Shown here piece after piece: positions 4,133 to 45,408 of a DNA stretch of 64,000 nucleotides. Below the pieces are notes generated by a model. That model worked only from the letters and a program-made list of their open reading frames with translations. It ran no database searches and had not been told where the DNA came from. The stretch covers positions 1 to 64,000 of the forward strand of contig NZ_JADEVV010000006.1 in assembly GCF_015207985.1 (NCBI RefSeq), written 5' to 3'. The stretch's first letter is position 1. Each line of letters starts with the position of its first letter. The stretch is from Synechocystis salina LEGE 00031. GTDB lineage: Bacteria; Cyanobacteriota; Cyanobacteriia; Cyanobacteriales; Microcystaceae. The translations under genes and the position numbers were made by a program.

Positions 4133-4339
4133 CCCTAGTCAATCAGGAAAAAATTGGGCTTTTCAAAAACAAAACGGACTACATTTGTTTTAGAACCTGT
4201 TCGTCAAGTCCAATTCTGCTCCTTAAATTTTCTAATGCCTTAATGTCGGGGGACTTTAAGTTTTTCCCGTCAAATGGGGGGGCAAGGAGGCTTGGCAAAC
4301 ACCACCTTAAATTTTTGACTTTCCTTAGCCGAAACCAGC

Positions 4340-10099: not shown

Positions 10100-13000
10100 C
10101 TAAGTAGCCAATGTGCGACGCTTCATGGTCATTTCATAGGCTTCGATGATGTCTCCCTCTTTCCAATCGTTGAACTTGCTACAGCCAATACCGCATTCAT
10201 AGCCGGCATTAACTTCCCGCACGTCCTCCTTAATACGTTTGAGGGAATCAATGTTGCCTTCAAACACCACTTGGTCACCCCGACGCACCCGTAGGTTACG
10301 GTTCCGGATAATTTTGCCCGACTGGACGTAACAACCGGCAATGTTGCCCCGACCCACAGGGAAGACCGCCCGCACTTCTGCCGTTCCCAGGGAGGACTCA
10401 ATTTCTTCGGGATCCAATAGACCTTCCATGGCCCCTTGGATGTCATCCAGAAGCTTATAGATAATGTCGTATTCCCGAATGTCCACCCCTTCCTGGTCGG
10501 CCGCTTGACGGGCCCCACTGGCCAAGGTGGTGTTGAAACCAATGATAATTGCTCCACTGGCGGCGGCTAGGTCCACATCGGTTTCCGTTACCTCTCCAGG
10601 GGATGCTAACAGAACCCGGATCTGTACTTCCCCTTGGGGTAATTGTTCCAAGGAACCCAAAATCGCCCCCACCGAACCTTGTACGTCCGCTTTGAGGATA
10701 ATATTCAGTTCTTTGAGTTCCCCTTCCTGGGCCTGGGCAGAAATACTGCTGAGGGTCACCTTGCGGGAAGACATGGCTTGTTGCAGACGGGTTTGACGGT
10801 CTTCCATGGCCCGGGCTTCGGCCTGGAGACGGGCATCCTTTTCATTGGTGAAGACTTCAAACTCATCCCCAGCGGCGGGCACATCCCCCAGACCAAGGAT
10901 TTCCACGGCGAAGGAAGGACTGGCTTCTTCCACCTTGTCGCCCCGGTCGTCGATCATGGCTCGGATTTTTCCGTACACAGCCCCCACCACAATGGCATCC
11001 CCAACCCGGAGAGTACCATTTTGGATCAAGAGGGTAGCCACAGGGCCCCTGGTGCGGTCTAGGTGAGCTTCGATTACCGTACCTTTGGCTTGACGTTGGG
11101 GGTTAGCCACCAATTCTTCTACTTCCGACACCAGCAGAATCATTTCCAACAAGCCATCTAGGTTGTCGCCGTTGAGGGCACTGACGGGCACCATGATGGT
11201 GTCTCCACCCCATTCTTCGGCCAGGAGACCAAGCTCGGATAACTCCTGCTTAATGCGATCGGGATTAGCTTCGGGCTTATCGACTTTGTTGATGGCCACA
11301 ATTAAGGGCACGCCGGCGGCCTTGGCATGGCTAATGGCCTCTTTGGTTTGGGGTTGCACACCGTCATCGGCGGCCACCACCAGAATGGCAATGTCTGTAA
11401 CCTTAGCTCCCCGGGCCCGCATGGCGGTAAAGGCTTCGTGGCCAGGAGTATCGAGGAAGACAATCTGTTCGGTTTTGTCGTTGTGCTCCACTTCAACGTG
11501 GTAAGCACCAATGTGCTGGGTAATGCCCCCTGCTTCCCCTTGGGCTACCTTGGTTTTGCGAATGGAGTCCAACAGGGTAGTTTTACCGTGGTCTACGTGC
11601 CCCATGATGGTAACCACGGGGGGACGACGCACCAGGTTATCCAGATCCGCTTCGTCGAGCATTTCTGTGGTTTTAGCAGCGGCGGCCACTTTTTCGGGGG
11701 TTTCCACTGCCACTTCAAAGGATTCGGCCACCATGCGGGCGGTTTCTTCGTCCAGGGTTTGGGTAATTTGTACCGCTACCCCTTTGAGGAAGAGCCGTTT
11801 GATAATGTCCGTTTCGGAAACTTTTAACAGATCTGCCAGATCCCGGACAGTTAAGCTCCGGTCCAACATGATCACTTCTGGTTTTTGCACCACTTCCTTC
11901 CGGTCGCGGCGATCACCACGGTTACGGGAACTGCTGCTGCTACCACTGCCGGCCTCGGACTTGAGGGTCGGCTTTTTAACCTTGGCCACAGTGGGGGTGC
12001 TAGGTTTAGCTACCAAGGATTTTGGTTTGGGAGGACGGGCAATGGAAAGACTAACGAGGGTGGGCTTGGGACCATTATCCCCATCTATATCCAGGTCATC
12101 GTCATCGTCGTCCATCTTGGGCCGTCGTTTGCCCTTGTTGGCCGCCTTAGCTTTATTGGCTTTTTCGTCTTCATCATCCTCCCATTGATCCGGTTTACCA
12201 AGGCGAGGAGGGGTGGGACGTTTTAGCTTCGGCTTGGGTTTTTCGGTGGAGAGCAGATCACTGTCATCGCCATCGTTATCTCCATCGCCTCCTTTGCCCC
12301 GACTGAGGGGAGGAAATTCCAGCAATTCTGGTAAATTTTCGTCCTCTTCGGGCCGGGGGGGCTTGGGACGGCGCAATTCTACCTTGGGCTTGGGGGGCTC
12401 CGGAGCATTATTGGACTTAGGGGCCCCAACCGGGACCGCTAGTTTTTCCTCTTTATCGTTATTGGCGGAGCGACTCTGACCGCGGTTGTCCTTAAGACTG
12501 ACAATTTCCGGACGGTTAGCTTTGGGCTTGGCTGGAGCAGCGGGCTTGCCTGGACTGGAAGTGCGGCTGGGAGGCCCTGCTAAACGGGGAGCCGCAGCAG
12601 TTTTCTTCGCCGGGGAGCTGGGAAGAACCGGCTTACTGGGGGGCGTTTGTAGGCTGGGTACAGGGGGAGGAGTCAGGGAAGGGGGAGCACTCTTCAGGGT
12701 CTCATTAGGAATATCTTCCTGTTTCTGCACCTTCGGGGCTGGAGCTTTAGCCACGGGGGGCTGGGGTGGAGTAGGGGCCTTCGGTGCCTGTAGTTTTGGC
12801 CTGGGAGCAGGGGTGGGGCGGGCCGGAGATGCAGCGCCGGATTTCTCCTGTTTGTGGTGGATTGCTAAAATCTTTTGTTGCTTGGGATCTGACTTATCCT
12901 CTTTCGACTCTGGCTTAGCGGCCACTCTAGGCTTCTTTGGTTGCTGGGGGGTGAATTTTTCGGCCGCCGCTTTGATGCGCTCCGCATCGGATTCACTAAT

Positions 13001-37568: not shown

Positions 37569-37699
37569 AGGACAGTAATTGAGGAATTTTTCCCCGCTAA
37601 AATCAATCCCCAAACGAGGGTGGAGGATAGGACAAATTGTACAATGGGCTTCTGGCATTGCCTCCCCAGGGCACTGACCCAAGCACTAAGCAAAATTTT

Positions 37700-38530
37700 A
37701 TGGCTTTTCGACCCCGCAAACGCTTTGGCCAACATTGGCTGAACCATCCACCAACTTTGCAGGCCATTGTGGCGGCGGCAGATATCCAACCCGGCGATCG
37801 CCTCTGGGAAATTGGCCCGGGCATGGGGGTTTTGACCAAGCAGTTATTAGCAACGGGCAATCCCCTGGTGGCGGTGGAGTTAGACCGGGATTTATGTCTT
37901 AAATTACGCAAAAAATTAGGGCAACGGGAAAATTTTCTGCTTTTGGAAGGAGATGTCTTAAAACTAGATTTAAACGCTTTATTACAGGATTTTCCCCAAT
38001 TTTCAGCCCCGAATAAGGTAGTGGCAAACATTCCCTACAACATCACCAGCCCCATTCTCGAACTACTACTCGGCACCATCCAAAAACCCCGATCACCTAG
38101 TTTGGCCACCATTGTTTTATTAGTACAAAAAGAAATTGCGGAACGATTAACGGCCCAACCCAGCACCAAAGCCTACGGAGCCTTGTCGGTGCGGATGCAA
38201 TACCTCGCCCGGGTGGATTGGATTGTGGATGTATCCCCCAAAGCCTTTACCCCGCCGCCCAAAGTGGATTCCGCTGTTATTCGCTTAACTCCCTACCCCG
38301 TAGATCAGTTACCAGGCGATCGCCGTTTATTGGATCAACTCCTCCGACTGGGGTTCGCCAATCGCCGTAAAATGTTACGCAATAACCTCAAGGGATTAAT
38401 TGCCCCGGAACAGTTAACTACCGTATTAGAACAGTTAGCCTTGCCGAGTACTGCCCGGGCGGAAGACTTGAGCCTAGAACAATGGTTAGAGTTAACTAAT
38501 TTGTTGCCGACTTTCTTTTCCCCAACCTGA
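37700..38530 (+). CDS. rsmA: 16S rRNA (adenine1518-N6/adenine1519-N6)-dimethyltransferase RsmA/KsgA
   Basis: 276 residues from the ATG at 37700 (MAFRPRKRFGQHWLNH). Upstream codons in frame do not fit the family. The SAM motif is LWEIGPGMGVLTKQLL and the catalytic NxxY motif is NIPYNI. The C-terminal helical domain contains FANRRKMLRNNL. It dimethylates two adenines near the 3' end of 16S rRNA. The stop codon overlaps an ATG (TGATG at 38528-38532) that starts a relic of ispE. This shows that rsmA and ispE were once overlapping, translationally coupled genes. The last part of this gene is repeated in degraded form at 39484-39572. Confidence 0.95.
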   Translation: MAFRPRKRFGQHWLNHPPTLQAIVAAADIQPGDRLWEIGPGMGVLTKQLLATGNPLVAVELDRDLCLKLRKKLGQRENFLLLEGDVLKLDLNALLQDFPQFSAPNKVVANIPYNITSPILELLLGTIQKPRSPSLATIVLLVQKEIAERLTAQPSTKAYGALSVRMQYLARVDWIVDVSPKAFTPPPKVDSAVIRLTPYPVDQLPGDRRLLDQLLRLGFANRRKMLRNNLKGLIAPEQLTTVLEQLALPSTARAEDLSLEQWLELTNLLPTFFSPT

Positions 38531-38595
38531 TGCATTACTACACCCTCCACGCCCCGCCAAAATCAATCTTTTCCTGGAAATTCTTGGCGATCGCC
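38354..38595 (+). repeat. Left copy of the duplicated rsmA-ispE junction
   Basis: This stretch spans the rsmA 3' part and the first 66 bases of an ispE copy. It matches 39487-39639. The first 24 bases are identical in both copies. A middle part is deleted in the right copy. The last 66/67 bases align with 3 substitutions and a one-base gap. The match ends exactly with GGCGATCGCC (38586-38595). The two copies flank xisH-xisI as direct repeats. Confidence 0.88.
38530..38595 (+). pseudogene. Relic of the ispE 5' end
   Basis: Begins with an ATG overlapping the rsmA stop and reproduces the first 22 codons of the intact ispE at 39573. Within CACGCCCC-GCC one C is missing relative to the intact copy, giving a frameshift. 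Three substitutions are also present. After the HIP1 palindrome the sequence is unrelated. It cannot encode a kinase; the functional gene is 1 kb downstream. Confidence 0.88.
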
Positions 38596-38728
38596 AAGCA
38601 AATTATGGCTATCACTGACGGCGGATCAAGTTTTGCTAGAAAGTTTTAGATTTATGTTTGTAGTTCTTACAGTTATGGGATCTTTAATCCAGCTTTTCGA
38701 ATAGATTAAAATTAAATTCTAGCAACCT
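38596..38728. other. AT-rich spacer upstream of xisH
   Basis: 133 bases unique to the inserted segment, with no gene. It is AT-rich, unlike the flanking genes, and presumably carries the xisH-xisI promoter. TAAATTCTAGC occurs at 38713-38723 just before the xisH ATG. No good Shine-Dalgarno precedes that ATG. Confidence 0.4.
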
Positions 38729-39145
38729 ATGCCAGCCAAAGATATTTTCCACGACTGTGTTAAAAATGCTTTGATTAAGGAAGGATGGACGATCACGGAA
38801 GACCCCCTGAGCTTGAAAATAGGCAAAAAGGATCTGTTTGTTGATTTGGCGGCGGAAAAGTTGCTGATTGCAGAAAAACAGAATCGCAGAATTGCGGTAG
38901 AGATTAAAAGTTTTATTGGTACATCGGAGGTGGAAGACCTTAAAAATGCTTTAGGTCAATATATTCTTTATGAAAAAATCATCAAAAGGCAATCTCTTGG
39001 TCGAGTTTTGTATCTTGCCATTAGGGACGCTATTTATAGAAAATTATTTATGGAGGAGATTGGCCAAATTTTACTAGAAGAAAACACAGTTAGATTAATT
39101 GTCTTTGACCCTGAAAAAGAGGTTATTATCCAATGGATAGGCTAG
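38729..39145 (+). CDS. xisH: XisH family protein (fdxN-element excision controlling factor type)
   Basis: 138 residues. The sequence MPAKDIFHDCVKNALIKEGW is the typical XisH opening. The fold is known to resemble restriction-endonuclease-like nucleases, and a candidate PD-(D/E)XK site is visible: D39 in LFVDLAAE and E58-x-K60 in AVEIKSF. In Anabaena, XisH and XisI are needed with the recombinase XisF to excise the fdxN element during heterocyst formation. Many cyanobacteria that do not form heterocysts carry xisH-xisI pairs without xisF, function unknown. It overlaps xisI by 13 bases. Confidence 0.9.
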   Translation: MPAKDIFHDCVKNALIKEGWTITEDPLSLKIGKKDLFVDLAAEKLLIAEKQNRRIAVEIKSFIGTSEVEDLKNALGQYILYEKIIKRQSLGRVLYLAIRDAIYRKLFMEEIGQILLEENTVRLIVFDPEKEVIIQWIG

Positions 39146-39468
39146 CTAAACATCGCCAAATTATTGAGAAAGTCCTAACTCCCTATGCCAATATTTCCTA
39201 TGCCAACGCCGAAATTAAAAATCGTCTTGTCATTGATGAAACCCATGATCAATACCTAATTATTTCCGAAGGTTGGCAACGGAACCAACGCTATCACAGT
39301 GTTCTAATTCATCTGGAAATTATTGACGGTAAGCTCTGGATTCAGTGTGACAACACAGAGGATGGCATTGCCACAGAACTCGTCAGTGCAGGTATTGCCA
39401 AAGAAGAAATTGTCCTTGGCTTCCATGAGCCACAAATACGCCCCTATACTGGTTTCGCCGTTGCTTAG
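39133..39468 (+). CDS. xisI: XisI family protein
   Basis: 111 residues. The motifs YANISYANAEIKNRLVIDE, HDQYLIISEGW, RYHSVLIHLEIIDGKLWIQCDNTEDGIA and the ending VLGFHEPQIRPYTGFAVA, read in blocks, are those of XisI. The start overlaps the end of xisH by 13 bases in another frame, so the two are translated together and probably form a complex. No XisF-type recombinase is nearby; the tyrosine recombinase at 25 kb is of another class (XisF is a serine recombinase). Confidence 0.9.
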   Translation: MDRLAKHRQIIEKVLTPYANISYANAEIKNRLVIDETHDQYLIISEGWQRNQRYHSVLIHLEIIDGKLWIQCDNTEDGIATELVSAGIAKEEIVLGFHEPQIRPYTGFAVA

Positions 39469-39483
39469 AAAAAGATCAAATTA

Positions 39484-39572
39484 GGATTCGCCAATCGCCG
39501 TAAAATGTTAGGCGAGATAACTTGAGTGGTTAGATTTAACTGATTTATTGCCCCTCTTTCACCCCCAACCTA
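39484..39572 (+). pseudogene. Relic of the rsmA 3' end
   Basis: TTCGCCAATCGCCGTAAAAT and the next four bases (39487-39510) are identical to 38354-38377 inside rsmA. After that the relic jumps to a degraded version of the last 80 bases of rsmA (CTTGAG, GGTTAGA.TTAACT, TTGCC, CCCCAACCT.ATG), about 80 bases being missing. It runs directly into the intact ispE start. It cannot encode protein. Confidence 0.85.
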
Positions 39573-39639
39573 ATGTATTCCTACACCCTCCACGCCCCCG
39601 CCAAAATTAATCTTTTCCTGGAAATTCTTGGCGATCGCC
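39487..39639 (+). repeat. Right copy of the duplicated rsmA-ispE junction
   Basis: Pairs with 38354-38595. This copy keeps the intact ispE side, while its rsmA side is decayed and internally deleted. The shared segment ends at GGCGATCGCC (39630-39639). Direct repeats flanking xisH-xisI could allow precise loss of the cassette by homologous recombination, which would restore a fused rsmA-ispE junction. Confidence 0.87.
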
Positions 39640-40520
39640 CCGACGGCTTCCACGAATTGGTGATGGTGTTGCAGAGCATTGCCCTGGGGGATGAAATTAC
39701 CGTGCGGGCCAACGGCACTGATGACATCCGCCTCAGTTGTGGGGACAGTCCCCTGGCCAACGATGCCACTAATTTGGCCTACCGGGCGGCCCAGTTGATG
39801 ATTAACCATTTTCCCCAGGCCCATAGTCAGTATGGCGGTGTAGATATCACCCTGACCAAGCACATTCCCATGGCGGCGGGGTTAGCAGGCGGTTCGGCCG
39901 ATGCGGCGGCGGTGTTAGTGGGTTTAGACCTGCTCTGGAATTTGGGTTTAACCAGGCCGGAATTAGAACAGTTAGCGGCCCAACTGGGTTCCGACATTCC
40001 CTTTTGCATTGGGGGCGGCACGGCGATCGCCACGGGACGGGGGGAAATCCTCGACCCCTTACCGGACGGGGATTGTTTCTGGGTGGTGTTGGCCAAACAC
40101 CGTTCCATGGAAGTTTCTACCCCCTGGGCCTACCAAACCTATCGCCAACAGTTTGGCAAAAATTACCTAAACGACGACCAATCCCAACGGGCCCGGCGTA
40201 AAACCATCCATGCGGGGCCCCTCCTCCAGGGCATTCAGCACCGCAACCCAGGGCAAATTGCCAGCCATATCCACAATGATTTAGAAAAAGTTGTGTTACC
40301 CGCCCATGAAGCTGTGGCCCAGTTACGCCAGGCCTTACAGTCCGCGGGGGGATTGGGCACCATGATGTCCGGCTCCGGCCCCAGCGTTTTTACCCTCTGT
40401 CAGGATCAAGCGACCGCAGAACAGGTGTTGGCGATCGCCAAAGAAAAATTAAACGACCCCGATGTGGATTTTTGGTTAACCCACACCATCGGCCATGGCA
40501 TTCAAATTATTGATCACTGA
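39573..40520 (+). CDS. ispE: 4-diphosphocytidyl-2-C-methyl-D-erythritol kinase
   Basis: 315 residues. The enzyme phosphorylates CDP-ME in the non-mevalonate (MEP) isoprenoid pathway. It opens [26 protein letters not shown]. The GHMP ATP-binding loop is [20 protein letters not shown] and the C-terminal motif is [12 protein letters not shown]. Upstream it follows an rsmA relic instead of intact rsmA, so the coupling to rsmA has been lost and expression may now depend on the inserted segment. CrtE, using the pathway product, is 20 kb away. Confidence 0.94.
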
Positions 40521-40625: not shown

Positions 40626-41603
40626 ATGGATATTAAGCATGGCTTTGTGGACTCCATTGGCCACACCCCCTTGATTCGCCTCAACAGTTTCAGTGACGAA
40701 ACCGGCTGTGAAATTTTAGGCAAAGCGGAATTCCTCAACCCCGGCGGCTCCGTCAAAGACCGGGCGGCCCTGGGCATCATTGAAACGGCGGAAAAGCAAG
40801 GCCAGCTTAAACCAGGCGGCACCGTGGTGGAAGGCACAGCCGGTAATACGGGCATTGGTTTGGCCCATATTTGCAATGCCAAAGGCTATAAATGCTTAAT
40901 CGTCATTCCCGACACCCAATCCCAGGAAAAAATTGACCTACTGCGTACCCTCGGCGCAGAAGTGAGGACAGTGCCAGCGGTGCCCTACCGAGACCCCAAC
41001 AATTACGTCAAACTATCCGGCCGCATTGCCGCAGAACTGGATAATGCCATCTGGGCCAATCAATTTGATAATTTGGCTAACCGTGAAGCCCACTACCACA
41101 CCACCGGCCCGGAAATTTGGCAACAAACGGACGGCAAAGTGGATGCCTGGGTAGCAGCTACGGGTACTGGGGGCACCTATGCAGGGGTAGCCCTGTACCT
41201 CAAGGAACAGTCCGCAGCGGTGCAATGCGTGGTGGCGGACCCCATGGGCAGTGGCCTGTATAGCTTCGTTAAAACCGGGGAAATTAACCCCAGCGGTAAT
41301 TCCATCACTGAAGGCATTGGCAACAGTCGCATCACCGCCAATATGGAAAATGTGCCCATTGACGATGCGGTGCAAATCGATGACCCGGAAGCGTTGCGGG
41401 TGGTGTACCAACTGCTACGACAGGATGGCCTCTTTATGGGCGGCTCCGTGGGCATTAATGTGGGGGCGGCCTATGAGTTGGCCAAAAAGCTAGGGCCAGG
41501 GCACACCATTGTTACCGTACTTTGTGACGGAGGAGCCCGTTACCAATCCCGTCTTTACAACGGGGAATGGCTGGCCAGTAAGGGTTTAACCGTTCCAGAT
41601 TAG
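40626..41603 (+). CDS. cysM: Cysteine synthase (O-acetylserine sulfhydrylase family)
   Basis: 325 residues from the ATG at 40626 (MDIKHGFVDSIGHTPLIRL); a TTG eight codons upstream is less likely. PLP lysine is in NPGGSVKDRAALG. The substrate loop is EGTAGNTGIGLA, where the more usual form is EPTSGNTGIGLA. The phosphate loop is ATGTGGTYAG. It forms cysteine from O-acetylserine and sulfide. I use cysM from memory of the PCC 6803 annotation; the loop variant GTAGNTG leaves room for another substrate. It follows ispE by about 100 bases. Confidence 0.88.
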   Translation: MDIKHGFVDSIGHTPLIRLNSFSDETGCEILGKAEFLNPGGSVKDRAALGIIETAEKQGQLKPGGTVVEGTAGNTGIGLAHICNAKGYKCLIVIPDTQSQEKIDLLRTLGAEVRTVPAVPYRDPNNYVKLSGRIAAELDNAIWANQFDNLANREAHYHTTGPEIWQQTDGKVDAWVAATGTGGTYAGVALYLKEQSAAVQCVVADPMGSGLYSFVKTGEINPSGNSITEGIGNSRITANMENVPIDDAVQIDDPEALRVVYQLLRQDGLFMGGSVGINVGAAYELAKKLGPGHTIVTVLCDGGARYQSRLYNGEWLASKGLTVPD

Positions 41604-41760
41604 TTTCGGCGCCGAGGCTCTTGCTTTTTATCGGGGAACGGGGCCCATAGTGCTCCATTTGATCGTCGCCATGGAAAAAATTGGTCTAACAATCTATGCC
41701 TTTGGAAACTGCCAAAATTTTTCAGCTTAGGTTAACCGGAAATATTCTCGGTGATAGGCC

Positions 41761-42468
41761 ATGGCGATCGTTTTTCAGCTAATTATCCTGACCATAGGTT
41801 TCGCCCTCTTTCACCGCATGGGTTGGAGTTATCTCCAAGCTCTAGCTCAATACCAACCACTGCCTCCCGGTAAAAGGGGGCGATCGGGTCAAAAGGTCTA
41901 TGTGGAAGGAATGTATGGTTCAGGAACCATTTTACGGTCTCCCATTGCCCAGGAATTTTGCCTCCGCTGGCGGGTTATCGTCACCGAAAAACAAGGTAAA
42001 AACAGCATTAGCCGCCTCGACCATGGTTCCTACGGAGTGGAAAATTTTGCCATTCTACGCCGGGGCGATCGCCGTTCCTTTCTAGTTGAGCAGCAACCGG
42101 ACACTGTGCTGAAGCAGATCCATGACCTGGGGGGTCACCATGGCCCCAAACATCAATACCAACAAAACTTGCTTTGGCAGAGTAATCATCCCCAGATGGT
42201 GGAGTTTTTGCAGAACAATGGCATTAGCCCTGATAACTGGTTGGGGGTGCGACGTTCCCTCACCGTCACTGAACTATTTTGGCGCACTAACGATCCTGTT
42301 TTTGTCTTCGGTGAACTGACAGAACAAGAAGGACAGTGGTGCCTGAAAGCCCATTTGCTCAGCGACCAATCCGTGGAAAAACTCAGGCGGGTGCCTAGTC
42401 TATTCCTGTTAATTGGTGTGGTTATTCTCTTTTTTGCCGGCTTGGGGATGTTCAACCTTTGGCGCTGA
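41761..42468 (+). CDS. Membrane-anchored protein of unknown function (possibly GIDE-like)
   Basis: 235 residues. An N-terminal membrane segment (about 1-18) and a C-terminal one (about 213-232) bracket a soluble domain. The internal segment GTILRSPIAQEFCLRWRVIV ... GDRRSFLVEQQPDTVL and RRSLTVTELFWRTNDPVFVFGELTEQEGQW recall the GIDE/BAM domain of MUL1-type proteins, whose bacterial members are uncharacterised. That likeness is weak and from pattern only. The ATG at 41761 gives the clean N-terminal anchor. Confidence 0.65.
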   Translation: MAIVFQLIILTIGFALFHRMGWSYLQALAQYQPLPPGKRGRSGQKVYVEGMYGSGTILRSPIAQEFCLRWRVIVTEKQGKNSISRLDHGSYGVENFAILRRGDRRSFLVEQQPDTVLKQIHDLGGHHGPKHQYQQNLLWQSNHPQMVEFLQNNGISPDNWLGVRRSLTVTELFWRTNDPVFVFGELTEQEGQWCLKAHLLSDQSVEKLRRVPSLFLLIGVVILFFAGLGMFNLWR

Positions 42469-42518
42469 ATCTTATCCCAACGCTTAGTAATAGCAGTGAC
42501 TGGTTTACCCAACGGGCA

Positions 42519-43910
42519 TTATCGGGCCGCTACCCCCTCACTGCGGGCGGCCAACTGCACCGCACTGGCCACGGTGGTGGCAACTCGATTGTCAAAAACC
42601 GAAGGAATAATATGCTCACTATCTAGGGTGTTGCTGTGCACCAAAGAGGCGATCGCCTTGGCCGCTTCGATGCACATGCTGGTGGTGATGATACTAGCCC
42701 GACAATCAATAGCTCCCCGGAAAACCCCCGGAAAAGCGAGCACATTGTTAATTTGGTTGGGGTAATCACTGCGCCCCGTGGCAATGACCGCCGCATCCTC
42801 CTGAATTAATTCCGGTTGAATTTCCGGGATGGGATTGGCCATGGCAAACACAATCGGATCTTTGGCCATGGATTGCACCATTTCCCTGGTCACTACCCCC
42901 GGCGCACTCACCCCTAAAAAGACATCGGCTCCGGCCATGGCATCGGCCAGGGTACCTTCCGCCTCCACCGCAAAGCCCTGTTTTTTGCTGTTTAAATCGG
43001 TGCGATGTTTACCCACAATGCCCTTGGAATCGCAGATCCAAATATTTTCTGCCCCGGATTCCTGCAGTAATTCGGCGATCGCCAACCCGGCGGCCCCAGC
43101 GCCGTTGATGACAATGCGTACCTTAGCCATGGCCTTGCCGACAAACTTCAGCGCATTGAACAGGGCGGCCAGGGTAACAATGGCGGTGCCATGTTGATCG
43201 TCGTGAAATACGGGGATATTTAATTCTTTTTTGAGGCGGGCTTCAATTTCAAAGCAGCGGGGAGCGGCAATATCTTCCAAATTAATCCCCCCAAATACCG
43301 GGGCGATCGCCTTAACGGTGCGGATAATTTCCTCCGTATCCTGGGTGGCCAAACAGATGGGAAACGCATCTAGTTGGGCAAATTCTTTGAACAGCATTGC
43401 TTTCCCTTCCATCACTGGCAAGGCCGCTTCTGGCCCCAGGTTGCCCAATCCCAACACCGCACTGCCATCGGTCACCACCGCCACCGTATTACTTTTGATG
43501 GTCAGGGAGTAAACCTTATCCGGGTCCTCGGCGATCGCCCGGCAAATGCGCCCCACCCCAGGGGTATAGGCCATGGCCAAGTCCGACTGGGAAGTGAGGG
43601 GAATGCGACTGACAACGCTAATTTTTCCCTGGCGATGCAAATCAAAGGTGCGGTCAGATACCTTCAGTAATTTGACATTATCCAGAGCCTTCACCGCCCC
43701 AATAATTTTTTCCGCATGCTCACTGCTCGAAGCATCTACGGAAATTTCCCGGCGGGTGAGCTTAAGATTACTTTCAATCAAGGAAATTTGCCCAAAACTT
43801 CCCCCCGCATCGGCGATCGCCTGGGTAACGCTGGCCAAGGTGCCGGCATGGTTGGGTAGCTCCAACAGGAGGCTGACGCTATAACTCGGATTGGGGGTAA
43901 GGCTAACCAT
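42519..43910 (-). CDS. me: NAD(P)-dependent malic enzyme with N-terminal ACT domain
   Basis: 463 residues. It decarboxylates malate to pyruvate. An ACT-type regulatory domain (about 10-85, YSVSLLLELPNHAGTLASVTQA) precedes the malic domain, which has AYTPGVGRICRAIAEDP, VAVVTDGSAVLGLGNLG, GINLEDIAAPRCFEIE and PVFHDDQHGTAIV. The Rossmann domain has VINGAGAAGLAIAELL. The ACT fusion is typical of cyanobacterial and some Gram-positive enzymes and suggests amino-acid or other ligand control. It is convergent with the membrane-anchored protein upstream. Confidence 0.94.
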   Translation of the reverse strand: MVSLTPNPSYSVSLLLELPNHAGTLASVTQAIADAGGSFGQISLIESNLKLTRREISVDASSSEHAEKIIGAVKALDNVKLLKVSDRTFDLHRQGKISVVSRIPLTSQSDLAMAYTPGVGRICRAIAEDPDKVYSLTIKSNTVAVVTDGSAVLGLGNLGPEAALPVMEGKAMLFKEFAQLDAFPICLATQDTEEIIRTVKAIAPVFGGINLEDIAAPRCFEIEARLKKELNIPVFHDDQHGTAIVTLAALFNALKFVGKAMAKVRIVINGAGAAGLAIAELLQESGAENIWICDSKGIVGKHRTDLNSKKQGFAVEAEGTLADAMAGADVFLGVSAPGVVTREMVQSMAKDPIVFAMANPIPEIQPELIQEDAAVIATGRSDYPNQINNVLAFPGVFRGAIDCRASIITTSMCIEAAKAIASLVHSNTLDSEHIIPSVFDNRVATTVASAVQLAARSEGVAAR

Positions 43911-44100: not shown

Positions 44101-44673
44101 ATGCAAAATTCCCCCGCCTCTTCCCGTTGGCAATTCATCAAGGAAAATATTCCCCTGCTCGTTGTGGCCCTGCTGTTGGCCCTGCTACTGCGTTTCTTTG
44201 TGGCGGAACCCCGCTACATTCCCTCCGACTCCATGCTGCCCACCCTCGAACAAGGCGATCGCCTGGTGGTGGAGAAAATTTCCTACCATTTCCATCCTCC
44301 CCAGGTTGGGGACATCATCGTGTTCCATCCGCCGGAGTTGTTGCAGGTGCAGGGCTACGACGGCAATCAAGCCTTTATCAAACGGGTCATTGCCATGCCT
44401 GGGCAAACGATAGCGGTGAATAATGGCATTGTCTACCGGGATGGACAACCCCTGGAAGAGAAATATATTTTGGAGCCGCCCCAATATAATTTGCCCGCCG
44501 TGCAGGTGCCAGAAGGTCAAGTGTTTGTCATGGGGGACAACCGCAACAACAGCAACGATTCCCATGTGTGGGGATTTTTACCCCAGGAAAACATCATCGG
44601 CCATGCCCTATTTCGCTTTTTTCCCGCCAGCCGTTGGGGGCAACTGACCGGCCCGGAATCATCGGTAGCCTAA
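44101..44673 (+). CDS. lepB: Signal peptidase I
   Basis: 190 residues from the ATG at 44101 (MQNSPASSRWQFIKENIPLL). A GTG frame from 43999 adds 34 residues rich in Pro/Leu without family support. One membrane segment (about 17-34) is followed by catalytic S44 in YIPSDSMLPTL and K94 in AFIKRVIAMPGQ. The C-terminal signature is VMGDNRNNSNDSHVWG. It removes signal peptides of exported and thylakoid-lumen proteins. Cyanobacteria usually have two such enzymes. Confidence 0.94.
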   Translation: MQNSPASSRWQFIKENIPLLVVALLLALLLRFFVAEPRYIPSDSMLPTLEQGDRLVVEKISYHFHPPQVGDIIVFHPPELLQVQGYDGNQAFIKRVIAMPGQTIAVNNGIVYRDGQPLEEKYILEPPQYNLPAVQVPEGQVFVMGDNRNNSNDSHVWGFLPQENIIGHALFRFFPASRWGQLTGPESSVA

Positions 44674-44693
44674 TCGACTCAGTTGCCAACTTT

Positions 44694-44849
44694 TTACTCA
44701 GTTTGTCGTTGGGCGATCGCCGTGAGCTCATTGGCATCAAGAATGGTAATCTTGCCTCCCCGTTGGTCGGTAAGGTACCTATTGCCAAACCAAAAAATGG
44801 GGCGAGAACTGCTCCCCAGCAAGAGCCAAAGTTTAATTCCAAATTGCAA
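44694..44849 (-). CDS. Possible small protein (about 51 residues), TTG start
   Basis: Opposite strand between lepB and the cupin gene. The frame reads LQFGIKLWLLLG..., then FWFGNRYLTDQRGGKITIL and DANELTAIAQRQTE before a TAA. The middle (RGGKITILDANELTAI) looks protein-like rather than random, and a HIP1 site falls in the coding sense. There is no ATG and no clear Shine-Dalgarno. The start at 44849 is a guess. It could also be the end of a truncated gene. Confidence 0.33.
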   Translation of the reverse strand: MQFGIKLWLLLGSSSRPIFWFGNRYLTDQRGGKITILDANELTAIAQRQTE

Positions 44850-44869
44850 CCATTGTCTTCGAGGTTTTT

Positions 44870-45202
44870 ATGGTCAACACCATTCTTTCCCTACAACCAT
44901 CATCCACTCAATTACAAAGTCACATTGAGTATCCCCAGGCCGGCATCCTGAGTAAAGTACTACTCCAAGACCGGGTTTGTCAGTACACGCTTTTTTGTCT
45001 AGCGACAGGCACCGACATCTCAGAACACAGCACTCCCCGTAACGCCGTCGTGCAATGTCTGGAAGGCACAGGAGAACTGAGCTTGGACGGCCAAAACATT
45101 ACCCTGGAACCAGGCGTGTGGGTGGTGATGCCGGCCAATGCGCCCCATGCTCTCAAAGCGACGTCCAACTTGGCCTTTTTACTTACCCTCAGTCAGCCCT
45201 AG
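44870..45202 (+). CDS. Cupin domain protein
   Basis: 110 residues forming a single small beta-barrel. The cupin motif 1 is reduced (GTDISEHSTPRNAVVQCLEGTGELSLDG), with one His where two are usual, and motif 2 is PGVWVVMPANAPHAL. Metal binding through one or two histidines is possible. Function unknown. It sits after lepB and before pnp, on the same strand, with 167 and 206 bases of spacing. Confidence 0.83.
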   Translation: MVNTILSLQPSSTQLQSHIEYPQAGILSKVLLQDRVCQYTLFCLATGTDISEHSTPRNAVVQCLEGTGELSLDGQNITLEPGVWVVMPANAPHALKATSNLAFLLTLSQP

Positions 45203-45408
45203 ACCCCAATCTGACCAACGGTTCTCTATTCCCATAGCGCAACAAAAAAGTTCAACCAGCTCGGAAAAAGCCCTAAGGCCAAGGGGAATCCTGGCAAAGA
45301 TAGGGATCATGCCCAGGCGATCGCCGTTTGGTCGGCCCAGGGTTCGTCAATGGTGTTAGGATCTGCTGAGAAGAAGAAACGTCATAGCACATAAGGAAAA
45401 CACGTTAA

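Follow-up and report, generated by a model that had tools for sequence, protein, structure and literature searches.

A two-gene cassette, xisH-xisI (xisHI), lies between rsmA and ispE in the genome of Synechocystis salina LEGE 00031, and it probably moved into this junction as a bare two-gene unit, whose joining to the chromosome duplicated about 263 nt of the target and left both neighboring genes whole. At this junction an insertion and a duplication of the target are seen beside single-copy, empty sites in relatives; the same scar recurs at other xisHI sites; and near-identical xisHI units, which have no constant ends, occur at places unrelated to one another. The recurring scar suggests that xisHI spreads without a transposase. 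In print, xisHI figures mainly as a helper pair in the excision of the fdxN element of Anabaena, though many copies are present across cyanobacteria. A reproducible insertion scar, together with empty sites, marks xisHI itself as a mobile unit. It also carries a pattern seen with restriction-modification genes over to a further phylum and a further pair of nuclease type, and it provides concrete sites at which the joining mechanism can now be examined.

The xisHI insertion between rsmA and ispE

The DNA analyzed, referred to here as the window, is a stretch of 64,000 nt (contig NZ_JADEVV010000006.1, positions 1 to 64,000 of the forward strand). It contains the following features at the junction.

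37700..38530, + strand: rsmA (16S rRNA dimethyladenosine transferase; PF00398), left neighbor, intact
38333..38595, + strand: left copy of the duplicated target, 263 nt, comprising the 3' part of rsmA and the first 66 nt of ispE
38530..38595, + strand: frameshifted relic of the ispE start, within the left copy
38596..39473, + strand: inserted unit, 878 nt, comprising 133 nt of upstream sequence, xisH, xisI, and 5 nt
38729..39145, + strand: xisH, 138 amino acids (PF08814; E value, 2e-55)
39133..39468, + strand: xisI, 111 amino acids, overlapping xisH by 13 nt (PF08869; E value, 4.5e-43)
39474..39639, + strand: right copy of the duplicated target, 166 nt remaining after internal deletions
39474..39572, + strand: eroded relic of the rsmA 3' end, within the right copy
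39573..40520, + strand: ispE (GHMP kinase domains), right neighbor, intact

Both Pfam models are fully covered by the products of the pair (XisH, 187.1 bits; XisI, 146.6 bits; curated cut-off, 25). The context of the ATG start of rsmA is the same in locus L004, and the open reading frame (ORF) list offers a TTG at 37637 as an upstream start.

A preliminary description of this DNA had placed an intact rsmA and a frameshifted 66-base relic of the ispE start to the left of xisHI, and a degraded relic of the rsmA end and an intact ispE to its right. Alignment confirmed both sides. The 66-nt relic on the left is one C short in a C run relative to the intact ispE and is therefore frameshifted, while the right copy has four gaps, in which 8, about 79, 10, and 3 nt are missing. 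The same description had the duplication starting at 38354; the duplication exists, but it begins further left, at about 38333, and its copies end at 38595 and 39639. The left and right copies agree at 146 of the 166 bases aligned across the full repeat, and the local alignment of the 3' part of the repeat scores 149, compared to a maximum of 28 in 200 mononucleotide shuffles. The left copy terminates in the palindrome GGCGATCGCC (38586 to 38595), which includes the HIP1 octamer. At the edge of the right copy, GATCAA (39474 to 39479) could represent a junction microhomology.

No transposase or recombinase was found among the ORFs of the 878-nt unit. Besides xisH and xisI, a single overlapping ORF of 53 amino acids starts between the repeats (ORFs of at least 50 amino acids considered), and none of the 16 inverted-repeat pairs checked joins the two ends of the unit. 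Upstream of xisH, an inverted repeat was noted by eye, with arms TTGCTAGAA (38633 to 38641) and TTCTAGCAA (38717 to 38725), the second of which immediately precedes the start codon; it is possibly regulatory.

Empty sites in related genomes

Three of the four same-genus genomes (G004, G003, and G002, with 98%, 93%, and 69% IspE identity to the window, respectively) have an rsmA stop that adjoins the ispE start, in single copy and without xisHI. No rsmA was found within a distance of 1.5 kb in the fourth, G001. Among the ispE loci of 29 relatives, rsmA directly adjoins ispE without xisHI in 17, a gap of 433 nt separates the two genes in 1, and no rsmA is found nearby in 11. The repeat in the window, set against the single-copy empty junctions of G004, G003, and G002, is therefore the product of an insertion that duplicated about 263 nt of its target. 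The preliminary description had likewise regarded xisHI as lying between direct repeats of the target, which greatly exceed an insertion sequence (IS) duplication in length, and it had named relatives that lack xisHI and still carry both relics as evidence against an insertion with duplication. G004, G003, and G002 have neither relic nor xisHI at this junction, and the first view thus stands. In strain PCC 6803, sll0709 and sll0710 presumably lie between ksgA and ispE, and they would then be the same insertion.

Both copies in the window contain CACGCC and CTGGAAA, where G003 and G004 contain CATGCC and CTCGAAA. Two base states of the duplicated ispE start are thus common to both window copies and absent from G003 and G004, and the duplicate was therefore copied from the window's own lineage. 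Along the 58.7 kb that could be chained to G004, three length differences of more than 150 nt were found between aligned blocks, and a long target overlap is present at xisHI only.

Two length differences away from the junction were noted in the comparison with relatives. Window positions 44640 to 45311 (about 670 nt) correspond to 72 to 97 nt in G004 and G003, with no target overlap seen, and include a small cupin-like ORF, named by eye, at 44870 to 45202. Positions 41603 to 42528 (926 nt) correspond to 11 nt in G003 and are aligned throughout to G004.

Recurrence of the scar at other xisHI sites

xisHI loci were sampled from named GTDB genomes (the best 80 of 119 relatives), from the genus, and from 50 genomes of the family (100 stretches). 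The 217 loci, some of which represent the same place twice, yielded 220 pairs, distributed over 212 loci. Complete 350-nt flanks were missing from 10 pairs, and the 210 pairs that had them on both sides were merged into 141 distinct sites. A bracketing repeat was defined as a direct repeat between the flanks with a score of at least 38, the next value below being 29.

Such a close direct repeat brackets 26 of the 141 sites when the best-scoring member of each site is used and 24 of 141 with one fixed member per site. In comparison, 88 of 3896 placements shifted within the same loci reach a score of 38, as do 10 of 285 gene-aligned controls, all of them distinct and away from any xisHI (19 candidates near another xisHI were left out). 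The difference between xisHI sites and gene-aligned controls has Fisher p values of 8.2e-7 (26/141) and 4.1e-6 (24/141); a smaller first survey had given 11/80 versus 62/2527. Of the 26 repeats, 16 are confined to a single locus within the 2.27 Mb examined, and ten also occur elsewhere, one of them (L191) solely at an orthologous site, so that 17 sites were counted as locus specific. Locus-specific repeats are found at 17/141 xisHI sites, compared to 7/285 controls (p = 1.6e-4). The insertion scar therefore recurs at other xisHI sites above the controls, and the similar duplications that the preliminary description had proposed looking for are present at some of them. At L045, L162, L141, L105, and L142, the repeat is, by eye, the start or end of an intact neighboring gene, as in the window.

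About six of the 26 repeats are short and HIP1 rich. A HIP1 octamer is flush with an end of the repeat at 10/26 xisHI sites versus 4/69 control repeats (p = 2.5e-4), the controls being unmatched and mostly another kind of repeat; a link between HIP1 and the repeat ends is suggestive. No bracketing repeat is present at 115 of the 141 xisHI sites, for which we propose either decay or another route.

Nine predicted empty sites (L191, L214, L177, L210, L207, L141, L142, L162, and L234) were searched in the 50 genomes, and a clean answer was obtained at L191 only. The prediction at L214 corresponds to a dispersed repeat and that at L177 to a tandem repeat. Among the 50 genomes, L141, L142, and L162 have filled relatives only, and no clean empty site was found for L234. 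For L045 and L067, the search gave no empty site. A relative of L141, G015, contains the xisHI unit of L141 without the left copy. At the site of L234, loci L389 (G044) and L392 (G041) have a partly deleted xisH and have kept xisI and the flanking repeat copies, and they form a decay series of the xisHI cassette at this site.

A second resolved site in Microcystis

The L191 site is located in a genus taken to be Microcystis on the basis of one matching contig. In G057, G053, and G054, a 359-nt target (D) is present on both sides of xisHI, with gaps in the copies of G053 and G054, and a single copy of D without xisHI is present in G058, G049, G010, G056, and G055. These counts (three filled, five empty) leave out G018, G050, and G051, which have partial matches, and G052, for which no match is listed.

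The same xisHI unit (98% identity) is also found in G058, where it lies 6 kb away from the empty site of that genome (locus L312, in reversed orientation, with the unit at 10485 to 11366 and the empty site at 4153). Behind xisI of this G058 unit are the first 35 nt of D, and a G in this piece recurs, among 12 copies, only in the right-hand copy of D in G057. Most simply, the unit would have departed, with a ragged end, from a filled site like that of G057 and then landed anew; the 35 nt are perhaps a footprint of this earlier residence. The reverse, in which a donor by chance matched the target over 35 nt, is less likely. The tree of the Microcystis flanks has weak support, and no order of gain and loss was taken from it.

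The moving unit and its genes

A total of 155 pairs of cassettes are at least 85% identical to each other. Both flanks are unlike in 84 of these pairs, 42 are at the same site, and 29 are mixed or short of flank. In the 84 pairs with unlike flanks, the median extent of shared sequence is 33.5 nt on the upstream side of xisH and 0 nt past xisI, and the moving unit therefore consists of the two genes and a short upstream stretch. It has no constant ends, no transposase, and no terminal repeats. The second xisHI in the genome of the window (contig C25; L388/L002) is 94 to 95% identical to three Microcystis units, with which it has 74 to 111 nt upstream and 0 to 50 nt downstream in common; L208, from another genus (G008), has more of the left flank of the C25 unit in common than the Microcystis units have.

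Median dN/dS values of 0.12 for xisH (202 pairs) and 0.08 for xisI (199 pairs), in both cases from nonindependent pairs, indicate that both genes are under purifying selection. Conservation across 173 distinct XisH proteins is 0.98 for D39, 1.00 for E58, and 0.99 for K60, which we read as putative PD-(D/E)XK-type residues. XisH is named as a PD-(D/E)XK member in a published listing (PMC1189080), and 2okf and 2inb are solved structures related to it; a nuclease role is possible. Genomes of the family contain up to 12 XisH matches each, broken ones included (50 genomes). A phage vehicle was considered and rejected, with no XisH match in 50,697 phage records. Membership in a known defense family was rejected as well, with no PADLOC match at E values up to 1.

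Joining mechanism and alternative explanations

Our best guess for the joining mechanism is one-sided or microhomology-mediated recombination. The two ends of a piece of DNA bearing xisHI would have attached to the target at two points separated by about 263 nt, in overlapping order, which would yield just this product. The joins might have used one-sided homology or microhomology, perhaps at GGCGATCGCC on the left and at GATCAA on the right, where the microhomologies are short and the junctions have decayed. Such a process could be likened to homology-facilitated illegitimate recombination or to template switching in break repair. Insertions whose duplication spared the neighboring genes would have survived, and the useless half of each copy would then have decayed.

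XisH might itself cut the target, with repair copying flanking DNA and an xisHI template, in the manner of homing or of a transposase-less selfish element. The conserved D, E, and K residues, the low dN/dS values, the number of matches per genome, the mobility of the unit, and the listing of XisH as a PD-(D/E)XK member (PMC1189080) are all consistent with this explanation, which we nevertheless hold to be rather unlikely. Similar repeats are found at vapBC pairs. The vapBC toxin is an RNase. Since vapBC loci of the same family also have flanking repeats, a general joining route is as likely as a break made by XisH. A broader proposal, which we regard as speculative and somewhat doubtful, is that xisHI and perhaps vapBC are transposase-less selfish pairs that spread from site to site in cyanobacteria by insertion with long target duplication, in which XisH, acting as a nuclease, would create or direct the break and palindromes with HIP1 would serve as joining points.

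Campbell-type integration, which the preliminary description had offered as an option, appears improbable. A circle or plasmid with xisHI and an rsmA-ispE junction would have recombined once with the chromosome, and the rest would have been deleted later. This would give direct target repeats with both genes intact, and XisH relatives are indeed present on 38 plasmid records, but all of these are less than 60% identical. A circle from another strain is disfavored because both copies share the base states of the window's lineage and because only xisHI lies between the repeats, with no replicon remaining. Moreover, the different target at each site would demand a circle with a matching junction every time, and near-identical xisHI units are found at other sites without junction DNA. 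It is more improbable still that the junction was first duplicated in tandem and the cassette then landed between the copies by chance. Tandem duplications are common and the product would look alike, yet at both resolved sites the relatives examined that lack xisHI all have a single target copy (three genomes of the genus and five of Microcystis). Least credible is an origin of the flanking repeats in chance or in the dispersed repeats of cyanobacterial genomes. Another locus does contain the repeat in 10 of the 26 cases, for L191 only at an orthologous site, and several repeats flanking toxin-antitoxin pairs are dispersed. However, the window repeat is coding DNA of both neighbors and occurs in no other locus examined, and locus-specific repeats are more frequent at xisHI sites than at controls. 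Chance is ruled out as the source of the repeats by the shuffles and controls, and for the window and the L191 site chance and dispersed repeats are both refuted by the empty sites. We retain insertion of the bare xisHI unit with duplication of its target as the probable explanation.

Comparison with known systems

For restriction-modification genes, "insertion with long target duplication," in which the duplication is long and variable, has been described (PMC1643837, PMC3874152, and PMC3031569, citing Nobusato et al. 2000 and Furuta et al. 2010). As far as these papers describe such insertions, xisHI resembles them in being a unit without mobile-element machinery, with a long and variable target duplication (on the order of 100 bp) that is recognized by comparison of close genomes. 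The target is single copy in relatives, and the repeats are about 263 nt here, 359 nt in Microcystis, and shorter elsewhere. In contrast to the insertions depicted there, the genes are xisHI, the hosts are cyanobacteria of several genera, and one unit appears to carry a piece of an earlier target. Restriction-modification genes, which are linked to this type of insertion by association in print and not by a strict definition, are absent from the unit, where only xisH and xisI are found. The preliminary description knew of no account of xisHI moving in this way. This holds for xisHI, for which no report of movement by long target duplication was found in the literature searched, where few subscription journals were covered; the kind of event, on the other hand, is known for restriction-modification genes.

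In transformable bacteria, homology-facilitated illegitimate recombination joins DNA through one-sided homology (PMC3240628). A homologous join at one end and an illegitimate one at the other could give overlapping joins and a duplication; the demonstrations found concern other DNA only.

The fdxN element of Anabaena (XisF, XisH, and XisI) contains homologous xisH and xisI. Unlike that element, with its XisF recombinase and core sites, the unit has no xisF; xisHI itself moves and is not a helper inside a larger element. In one reported view, XisI serves XisF as a directionality factor, and XisH has endonuclease activity (PMC4853749). The unit also differs from an IS or transposon, with only two genes, no terminal inverted repeats, and a duplication of about 263 nt in place of a fixed, short one.

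Mobile toxin-antitoxin pairs (vapBC and relBE/parDE) are, like xisHI, small overlapping gene pairs with a patchy distribution and many copies. xisHI was matched by no PADLOC model. A term search did not find "xis" in the main texts of two toxin-antitoxin papers (PMC2701414 and PMC4963859). Flanking repeats are present at 10/29 PIN/VapC loci versus 6/226 shifted placements, some of them dispersed. The ParE loci do not clearly exceed their shifted placements (4/30 versus 21/283), and L343, counted among these four, is artefactual. With repeats at the flanks of some vapBC pairs as well, xisHI may not be a special case. Two vapBC-type pairs, L369 (308 nt) and L362 (153 nt), are bracketed by direct repeats that were found in no other locus examined, a scar like that of xisHI.
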